From assembly GCA_024644725.1 (NCBI GenBank), contig JAHEHE010000001.1:25257-89256 (forward strand): DNA of 64,000 nucleotides. The letters are read 5' to 3'. The notes beneath the pieces were generated by a model. It ran no database searches, had not been told where the DNA came from, and worked only from the letters and a program-made list of their open reading frames with translations. The first letter of the stretch is position 1, and every line of letters begins with the position of its first letter. This stretch comes from Flavobacteriaceae bacterium. Lineage in GTDB: Bacteria; Bacteroidota; Bacteroidia; Flavobacteriales; Flavobacteriaceae. The translations under genes and the position numbers were made by a program. This document shows, piece after piece, positions 15,198-17,606 of the stretch.

Positions 15198-16064
15198 ATG
15201 TCAGAGAATCTAACTGTACCCAGGCAGAAGAAACCGGAGTGGCTCCGGGTAAAACTCCCTGTGGGAAAGAAATATAAGGACCTGAGGGGGCTTGTAGACA
15301 AATACAAGCTCAACACAATCTGTACCAGTGGAAGTTGCCCAAACATGGGGGAATGCTGGGGAGAAGGAACGGCTACGTTCATGATCCTGGGCAATATATG
15401 CACCCGATCCTGTGGCTTCTGCGGAGTCAAGACCGGGAAACCGGAAAGTGTAGAATGGGATGAACCGGAAAAAGTCGCGCGTTCCATACATCTGATGAAA
15501 ATCAAGCATGCCGTCATCACGTCTGTCGATAGGGATGATCTTAGGGATGGAGGGTCAATCATTTGGGCGGAGACCGTTGAAGCGATCCGGCGCAGCAACC
15601 CGGAGACTACACTCGAAACGCTTATCCCTGACTTCAGGGGCATCCGGAGAAATATCGATCGGATTGTTGACGTGGCACCCGAAGTAATCTCCCACAACCT
15701 GGAAACGGTAAGGCGACTTACCCGGGAGGTAAGAATTCAGGCCAAATACGATCGAAGCCTGGAGGTCCTGGAATACATCAAAGATTCAGGGCAGCCCAGA
15801 ACAAAATCCGGAATCATGCTAGGCTTGGGTGAACGTGAAGAAGAGGTGATCGAAACCTTGCACGATTTGAAAAAAGCCAAAGTGGATATTGTCACTATTG
15901 GACAATATCTTCAACCGAGCAAAAAACACCTGCCGGTTCATGAGTTCATTCCACCGGAACAATTCGAGAAGTACAAACGCATAGGTTTGGAACTCGGTTT
16001 CAGGTATGTTGAAAGCGGTGCTCTTGTCCGTTCTTCTTACCGGGCAGAAAAACACCTGGTATGA
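15198..16064 (+). CDS. lipA: Lipoyl synthase
   Basis: Radical-SAM CTRSCGFCGV, auxiliary cluster CTSGSCPNMGECW, C-terminal RSSYRA. Confidence 0.97.
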   Translation: MSENLTVPRQKKPEWLRVKLPVGKKYKDLRGLVDKYKLNTICTSGSCPNMGECWGEGTATFMILGNICTRSCGFCGVKTGKPESVEWDEPEKVARSIHLMKIKHAVITSVDRDDLRDGGSIIWAETVEAIRRSNPETTLETLIPDFRGIRRNIDRIVDVAPEVISHNLETVRRLTREVRIQAKYDRSLEVLEYIKDSGQPRTKSGIMLGLGEREEEVIETLHDLKKAKVDIVTIGQYLQPSKKHLPVHEFIPPEQFEKYKRIGLELGFRYVESGALVRSSYRAEKHLV

Positions 16065-16157
16065 TTTAACATAGGATTAACAGTGCGTTTTCAAAAATGG
16101 AATGGAATTTGCTACCTTTATACTGAAGCAAAATTCCCCATTAGTTTTGACTTCGTT

Positions 16158-16184
16158 ATGATTAATTTTGAGTTAGTAAGCTAA
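16158..16184 (+). CDS. Candidate nano-ORF MINFELVS* (unit 1)
   Basis: ATG ATT AAT TTT GAG TTA GTA AGC TAA; identical codons in units 1 and 2. Confidence 0.3.
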   Translation: MINFELVS

Positions 16185-16213
16185 AAGGCTCTTCATTTTT
16201 TGGAGGGCCTTTT
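16183..16213 (+). terminator. Intrinsic terminator, unit 1
   Basis: Stem AAAAGGCTCTTC / GGAGGGCCTTTT with G-U wobbles, T-rich 3' side. Confidence 0.65.
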
Positions 16214-16440
16214 ATTTGATCAAACGATTTACTCCCTATCAAATAATGCATTGCGATTGAGAAGAATCTCTCCGCACACCTGGTTTCTGAAAAAGAAATC
16301 AACAAAAAATGCGATACCGGCAAATAAATTAATAAATTCATAACAAATATTAACAAATCTGTAACACTTGACAACGAGTTTGGCACGAGATTTGCAAATA
16401 TTCAATTGAAGCAAAGTTCCCCACAGATTTTGTTTTCATT

Positions 16441-16467
16441 ATGATTAATTTTGAGTTAGTAAGCTAA
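16441..16467 (+). CDS. Candidate nano-ORF MINFELVS* (unit 2)
   Basis: ATG ATT AAT TTT GAG TTA GTA AGC TAA. Confidence 0.3.
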   Translation: MINFELVS

Positions 16468-16496
16468 AAAGCACTTCATCCCGAAGTGCTTTTTTG
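16466..16496 (+). terminator. Intrinsic terminator, unit 2
   Basis: AAAAAGCACTTC atccc GAAGTGCTTTTTT. Confidence 0.75.
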
Positions 16497-16697
16497 TTTG
16501 GAACAGAATATTTGAAAGTTTTCAGCCGGGAAAAAGTGGCATTTATTAACAATAACATTCAAATCTTGCAAATAATTGCAAGACGTGGTCAAAAAAATGG
16601 TTAAACCAAATATTTTTCACTATAATTTTGTTGAATTATCAAAATATTCTTACCTTGTAACCGTAAACAAAGTTCCTCACAAAATTTTGTTCTTCAT

Positions 16698-16724
16698 TTG
16701 ATTAATTTTGAGTTAGTAAGCTAA
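16698..16724 (+). CDS. Candidate nano-ORF (TTG start) [M]INFELVS* (unit 3)
   Basis: TTG ATT AAT TTT GAG TTA GTA AGC TAA; same codons apart from the start. Confidence 0.25.
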   Translation: MINFELVS

Positions 16725-16753
16725 AAAGCACTTCTTTCGAAGTGCTTTTTTTC
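16723..16753 (+). terminator. Intrinsic terminator, unit 3
   Basis: AAAAAGCACTTC TTTC GAAGTGCTTTTTTT. Confidence 0.75.
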
Positions 16754-16793
16754 GTTTCCAAAAGTCGGTTTTGGCATGTGAAATCGATTTGCG

Positions 16794-17606
16794 TCAGCAA
16801 CGCCGAATGAATTCAAGAACCAGATCATTGAGTTTTTCCTCCGATCCTCTTGCGGCCTCCTGCACTGCTTCGTGAGAAACCGGCTCAATTTTGCCCTCGA
16901 TACCGAGGTCGGTGATCACCGAAAGTCCAAAGCACTTCATATCCATGTGCCTGGCAACAATCACCTCAGGAACCGTGCTCATCCCGACCGTATCTGCACC
17001 CACCAGTCTGACCATTCGATACTCAGCCGGTGTCTCGAAGGTAGGTCCCTGAAGTGCCAGGTACACCCCTTGTCTGACGGGTATGTTCTTTTCTCCCGCA
17101 ACCTCGTTCATAATCCGAATCATTTCGAGATCATAAGGCTCATGCATATCGACAAATCTGGGGCCAAAACGCGAATCGTTTTCACCCCTTAGCGGATGTT
17201 CGGGCATAAAATTGATGTGGTCCGTTATAATCATGATGTCACCGACCTCAAAATCAGGGTTCACCCCCCCACTGGCATTCGAAACCATCAATTTCTCAAC
17301 TCCGAGAAGCTTCATGACCCGCACCGGAAAAGTAACTTCCTCCATTTCCCATCCCTCGTAATAATGGAAGCGGCCTTGCATGGCGACGACTTTTCTCCCT
17401 GAGAGTTCCCCATAGATCAGTGCACCGGTGTGACCGCTGACCGTGGAGACCGGGAAATTGGGAATGTCGTGGTACGGAATCTTCTTTTCGACCCGGATCG
17501 TCTTTGCCACACCCCCCAGTCCTGTGCCCAGGATAATGCCAATCTCAGGATTTATGATCCCCAACTCCTTTAAGAATTTAGCCGTTTCCTTGATTCTTTC
17601 GTACAT
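16794..17606 (-). CDS. punA: Purine nucleoside phosphorylase
   Basis: EIGIILGTGLGG, GRFHYYEGWEMEEVTFPVRVMKLLGVEKLMVSNASGGVNP. Confidence 0.95.
   Translation of the reverse strand: MYERIKETAKFLKELGIINPEIGIILGTGLGGVAKTIRVEKKIPYHDIPNFPVSTVSGHTGALIYGELSGRKVVAMQGRFHYYEGWEMEEVTFPVRVMKLLGVEKLMVSNASGGVNPDFEVGDIMIITDHINFMPEHPLRGENDSRFGPRFVDMHEPYDLEMIRIMNEVAGEKNIPVRQGVYLALQGPTFETPAEYRMVRLVGADTVGMSTVPEVIVARHMDMKCFGLSVITDLGIEGKIEPVSHEAVQEAARGSEEKLNDLVLEFIRRC

Follow-up and report, generated by a model that had tools for sequence, protein, structure and literature searches.

Three tandem units lying between lipA and punA in the DNA of a marine Flavobacteriaceae bacterium analysed here (64,000 nucleotides, the window) almost certainly belong to a genuine small-RNA family, each unit being a predicted RNA gene of ~90 nt that has a separate promoter and terminator and, between them, a 5' hairpin followed by a conserved linker and core. 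We lean modestly towards a function as stress-induced, sigma-54-driven sibling antisense RNAs that act in trans and block outer-membrane-protein mRNAs. An earlier, sequence-only reading of this DNA had proposed stand-alone tandem sibling small RNAs, and the separate promoters and terminators and the conserved structure of the units point the same way. Beyond that reading, the data described below point to a sigma factor and to likely target mRNAs, and reveal dispersed copies and a taxonomic range that is narrow.

The lipA-punA array

The array is bounded by two conserved neighbours identified by domain content and synteny, lipA upstream (lipoyl synthase, 15198..16064, + strand; Radical_SAM with a weak LIAS_N match) and the convergent punA downstream (purine-nucleoside phosphorylase, 16794..17606, - strand; PNP_UDP_1). 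No same-strand gene was found between the two, in keeping with the earlier statement that no protein gene lies downstream on that strand before punA. The small RNAs, all on the + strand, were located at 16126..16215 (unit 1, ends inferred from structure), 16409..16498 (unit 2) and 16665..16753 (unit 3), with covariance-model scores of 95.5, 109.9 and 99.8 bits from a model itself built from these three units, and fold z values against shuffles of -3.6, -4.6 and -3.2, respectively. These coordinates bear out the tandem spacing first reported, the ~90-nt units being separated start to start by 283 bp and then 257 bp. A 27-nt block, GATTAATTTTGAGTTAGTAAGCTAAAA, has the same letters in all three units and forms the conserved core of each (16160..16186, 16443..16469 and 16700..16726, + strand), which is near-invariant in 65 copies of the family. 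As searches allowing up to three mismatches gave no match in 100 shuffles, the identity of this block in three units is not due to chance. Upstream, unit 1 carries a 5' hairpin with a C-rich loop (16128..16150, + strand), defined by alignment and covariation with 96.3% of helix 1 cells paired, and a AAGCAAARTTCCYCA-type block lies within a small hairpin in every unit, the unit 3 version being AAACAAAGTTCCTCA. Intrinsic terminators were assigned from sequence and fold at 16183..16214, 16466..16499 and 16723..16750 (+ strand), with stems of GGCTCTTC/GGAGGGCC in unit 1 and GCACTTC/GAAGTGC in units 2 and 3.

The observation that the unit 1 stem differs and still pairs extends to the relatives, where alignment of 58 copies revealed changes on both sides in 12/12 terminator pairs. 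In the same alignment the 5' hairpin had 96% of cells paired and both-side changes in 5/8 pairs, and covariation was far lower in shuffled and slid controls. The core stays near-invariant while hairpin and terminator covary, and linker and core are predicted to be mostly unpaired in each unit; a third helix, apparent within the core, shows too little variation for covariation to bear on it. The sequence-only reading did not recognise the family, and an Rfam 15 search of the window likewise returned no match at the gathering threshold, and all sub-threshold matches scored far under the cut-offs of their families, the best being EF3314_EF3315 (24.6 bits, where the threshold is 100). No earlier description of this RNA family was found, nor did a search of the literature yield any small RNA from Lutimonas.

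Two readings that deny the core a role in a small RNA were weighed against these data. The core of units 1 and 2 can be read as ATG ATT AAT TTT GAG TTA GTA AGC TAA (MINFELVS), and if the units were leader-peptide or small-protein genes this would account for the in-frame ATG before the core in 43/65 copies and the stop after it in many. However, the ATG is missing in 22/65 copies, several have no stop any longer, and the eight codon changes found in the core among 65 copies are all non-synonymous (8/8, with 0 synonymous), indicating that the core is not a peptide gene; peptide coding was rejected on this ground and is barely credible. The block might instead be a mere 3'-end motif (three-frame stops or transcript-end processing) before the terminators of ordinary transcripts, given that sequences resembling TTTTGAGTTAGTTAG lie in front of terminators in other genera of the Flavobacteriaceae. 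We consider this improbable, because hairpin and linker are conserved along with the block, no same-strand gene precedes it within a unit, and 27/29 GTTAG-preceded terminators in the window and the Lutimonas loci belong to the RNA family, so that GTTAG is not a general terminator feature in those loci. Separately, TTTTGAGTTAGTTAG or a similar sequence was seen before terminators or in 3' UTRs near position 1500 of L007, L031, L129, L102, L111, L112, L114 and L119, and in other genera forward TTTTGAGTTAGTTAG-like matches outnumbered those of a reversed-pattern control; they may represent a separate 3'-end motif.

Distribution and synteny of the family

Allowing up to two mismatches, every genome of the genus (22/22) contains the core, at one to seven copies each, and the block is thus not absent from relatives. 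Apart from MAGs of the Flavobacteriaceae, Flavobacteriia and Bacteroidia, an exact core scan of GTDB genomes returned only the named species Lutimonas halocynthiae and L. saemankumensis, and no exact core was found in viral contigs. A covariance-model search had been proposed with the earlier reading; of the genomes sampled within the family, only those of the Lutimonas genus and one neighbour, g176, matched two such models (R1 and R2) strongly. Weak matches of 35-43 bits in other genera were not accepted as members, and one such candidate, L081, looks like a 3' UTR. The lipA check suggested at the outset was also carried out, and the order lipA-[one to three units]-punA is kept throughout the genus, and g176 shares it, as far as the contigs reach. 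Only the three lipA-punA units were found when the source genome itself was searched. Some species carry further copies, up to seven in some genomes, in other, mostly convergent spacers adjoining clpX, sppA/folA, gldC/folK, aroA, a DNA glycosylase gene and rpsT (gene names as read from translations), and several of these positions are common to different species, some also to the neighbouring genus.

Copy numbers of up to seven per genome at intergenic, mostly convergent sites are also what one would expect of a MITE-like or REP-like repeat, mobile or duplicated, that carried a terminator only incidentally and had no regulatory role. Against this stand the positions kept between species and in part in the neighbouring genus, the compensatory stem changes, the near-fixed promoter spacing described below, the lack of any sighting of long inverted ends and the lack of exact cores in viral contigs. 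Moreover, when the units of seven complete arrays were placed in a tree, those of unit 3 clustered together, and units at the same position are more alike (0.79) than units within one genome (0.68). Such a repeat is therefore a very improbable explanation, and the position-wise grouping indicates that the array and its promoter split predate these species.

Promoters and candidate regulators

The promoter-like box described earlier for each unit is present in all three, but the boxes are not of one kind. Unit 1 has a sigma-54 -24/-12 element, TGGAATGGAATTTGCT (16098..16113, + strand), in which GG-N10-GC is kept and the rest is off consensus, with TGGAACGGAATTTGCT and TGGTATAGATTTTGAT as homologues. 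The unit 2 sigma-54 promoter, TGGCACGAGATTTGCA (16381..16396, + strand), fits the consensus TGGCACGNNNNTTGCW throughout. No sigma-54 site was found before unit 3, whose box TACCTTGT (16651..16658, + strand) fits TAnnTTGY (SM5-like) or a variant sigma-A -7 box; the element is absent from the unit 3 orthologues too, many of which have TAnnTTGY or TAnnTTYG boxes. The spacers had been thought unconserved, and this does not hold throughout, since a TTAACA-N5/6-TAACA direct repeat recurs upstream of the sigma-54 elements, as TTAACA-N5-TTAACA before unit 1 (16066..16082, + strand), a candidate activator site, and as TTAACA-N6-TAACA before unit 2 (16350..16366, + strand).

Across the family a sigma-54 -24/-12 element was identified, on sequence alone, in 46/64 distinct copies, with a TGGCAY-N5-TTGCW-like form lying upstream of the hairpin at a near-fixed distance of 51-57 nt before the core, and none was found in shuffled upstream DNA. 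A TTAAC-type direct repeat (TTAAY-N-TAAY) lies upstream in 28/31 tested sigma-54-bearing copies, in 23 of them ~15-17 nt before the TGG (mean of 2.2 in shuffles). The 2.38 Mb covered in the relative G011 contained just 11 noncoding sigma-54-like sites, two of them belonging to units 1 and 2, which are also the only two with the upstream repeat; the site orthologous to the unit 2 promoter is one of just two noncoding top-score sites. Copies like unit 2 are thus very probably under sigma-54 control.

Other G011 sites precede htpG, rsfS-ftsH and lipoproteins, those at htpG (TGGTAT-N5-TTGAT) and rsfS-ftsH lying upstream of 1090878 and 2254108, respectively. Promoters have been mapped in Flavobacterium psychrophilum, where SM4 corresponds to sigma-54 and SM5 to TAnnTTGY, and SM4 genes include GroEL, DnaK, ClpB, Lon, HtpG, Skp and the putative regulatory RNA Rfp36 (PMC9723704). 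The G011 sites before protein-quality genes agree with this regulon. The source genome contains rpoN and encodes a protein combining a receiver with a sigma-54-activator (AAA) domain. Sigma-54 activators (PF00158) were found in the genus, none of them assigned to these promoters; the best activator of the source genome itself, L136 (G000:C136), has receiver and AAA domains without a recognised C-terminal DNA-binding domain. Hfq is absent from 22/22 genus genomes.

Predicted targets and comparison with known systems

Target prediction was carried out on 2044 leaders of G011, representing two thirds of one genome and with the first ATG taken as start. The 27-nt core alone gave no pairing excess over shuffles, and a signal appeared only once the linker was included. 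With the full RNA the top target was a SusC/RagA-type receptor at -30.5 kcal/mol (mean -6.3, sd 2.8), with an OmpH-like gene second and OmpA fourth, compared with -16 to -21.4 at best for seven control RNAs in which linker and core were shuffled. When duplex energies of a 43-nt region were compared with 60 shuffles, the first match was equalled once and the second and third never, the second being an uncharacterised 222-aa protein. Wzc (537840), which ranked second with the 27-nt core, dropped back with the longer region and was set aside. The predicted pairing spans the AUG of the receptor, OmpH-like and ompA mRNAs, the predictions for the first two being derived from G011 alone. The best predicted target forms part of a SusC/SusD-like pair (G011:906647-909874) near rpsL/rpsG (rpsL-like gene at 912022) and is probably a major receptor.

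For ompA the comparison was extended to other species. The predicted antisense segment of unit 2, UCAUUAUGAUUAAUUUUGAGUUAGUAAGCU (16436..16465, + strand), would pair with the ompA leader over the AUG, and the predicted pairing of a species' own RNAs with its own ompA leader was better than with shuffled leaders in 16/19 species, with z of about -4 to -7 in array species and -5.3 in the source genome. Pairing was weaker with the ompA leaders of 28 genera that lack the RNA (mean about -16 versus -23), and was lost in the dispersed-copy species G021, G005 and G016, for each of which one copy was compared. As the CTTACTT of the ompA leader is found in genera without the RNA, it is older than the RNA family. 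A species' own RNA outperformed those of other species on its own leader in only 11/19 cases, so that there is no clear co-variation beyond shared descent. In other Flavobacteriaceae (L299-L326) the ompA leader is strongly conserved, as in TTTAACAACTTACTTTTGCTTACAATTAACACTTAAAAATTAAA, and has the look of a promoter together with a leader; in Lutimonas this leader takes an altered form. Overall, the chances that outer-membrane-protein mRNAs are the targets appear evenly balanced.

The same data bear on a less likely, though serious, alternative, namely that the sigma-54 sibling RNAs act on other mRNAs or serve as a sponge or titration RNA for an RNA-binding protein recognising the core. A 15-nt core is conserved more strictly than one pairing site requires, it recurs in RNAs that are shorter and have no hairpin (L038, L047, L066, L069), and both the lack of excess in the core-only scan and the lack of ompA pairing in dispersed-copy species would fit. 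Full-length pairing with three outer-membrane-related mRNAs nevertheless beats shuffled RNAs, and the ompA site exceeds shuffled leaders in most species. In the short relatives (L038:764, L047:3925(-), L066:3207(-), L069:1948(-)) a sigma-A-type TATNTTTG-like box stands directly before GATTAATTTTGAGTTAGTAAG, followed by the terminator, and a ~55-nt RNA would begin with the core.

For antisense control of outer-membrane-protein mRNAs, we infer transcription, stress induction, an activator, mRNA pairing and repression, as follows. A stress signal would act through an enhancer-binding protein to activate sigma-54, after which the sibling RNAs would accumulate; linker and core (UCAUUAUGAUUAAUUUUGAGUUAGUAAGCU) would then pair over the start codon and leader of the OmpA, SusC-type TonB-dependent receptor and OmpH-like mRNAs, stopping translation initiation on mRNAs without Shine-Dalgarno sites. 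As a counterpoint, the OmpH/Skp gene sits in the F. psychrophilum sigma-54 regulon, and its repression by sigma-54 RNAs would therefore make an odd loop. More speculatively, these Flavobacteriaceae may use sigma-54 instead of sigma-E for envelope or protein-quality stress, through Hfq-independent start-codon antisense sibling RNAs on Shine-Dalgarno-less outer-membrane-protein mRNAs, with the unit 3 promoter as a second input; we regard this wider scheme as doubtful. Few small RNAs are understood in the Bacteroidota, in which Shine-Dalgarno signals are lacking. If true, the mechanism would show how bacteria without Hfq or Shine-Dalgarno sites lower outer-membrane-protein synthesis under stress, with the sigma factor, the pairing region and three mRNAs named, and the predictions are testable since the genus includes the cultured species L. 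halocynthiae and L. saemankumensis.

Several known systems resemble the family in part. The LhrC1-5 RNAs of Listeria are multicopy siblings with C-rich loops, several of them in tandem, but they belong to another phylum, have other promoters and gave no Rfam match here. Within the same bacterial family F. psychrophilum has the small RNAs Rfp36 and Rfp18, the former with a sigma-54 (SM4) promoter (PMC9723704). The Lutimonas RNAs may be distinct from these, going by the strong matches of R1 and R2, which among the family genomes sampled were confined to Lutimonas and one neighbouring genus. Qrr1-5 of Vibrio are, like the Lutimonas RNAs, siblings of similar size with their own terminators and a near-identical pairing region. 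The Qrr RNAs work with Hfq and LuxO on quorum regulators, whereas the 22 of 22 genus genomes lack Hfq and the predicted Lutimonas targets are outer-membrane mRNAs; there is no sequence relation and no Rfam Qrr match, and the Lutimonas copies stand in tandem at lipA-punA, unlike Qrr. The comparison with Qrr, drawn already in the sequence-only reading, is apter than could be seen then because most copies carry sigma-54 promoters, as do the Qrr RNAs (PMC10162802). MicA and RybB of enterobacteria and VrrA of Vibrio are driven by a stress sigma factor and downregulate ompA and further outer-membrane mRNAs, with which they pair in the 5' region (PMC1804206, PMC2628432). These three depend on sigma-E, whereas the Lutimonas RNAs carry sigma-54 elements, and the sequences are unrelated. 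MicA and RybB act through Hfq, unlike VrrA, which has no strict need for it. If the proposed mechanism is true, the Lutimonas RNAs would do under sigma-54 and without Hfq what MicA and RybB do under sigma-E, as a counterpart independent of both these and Qrr.
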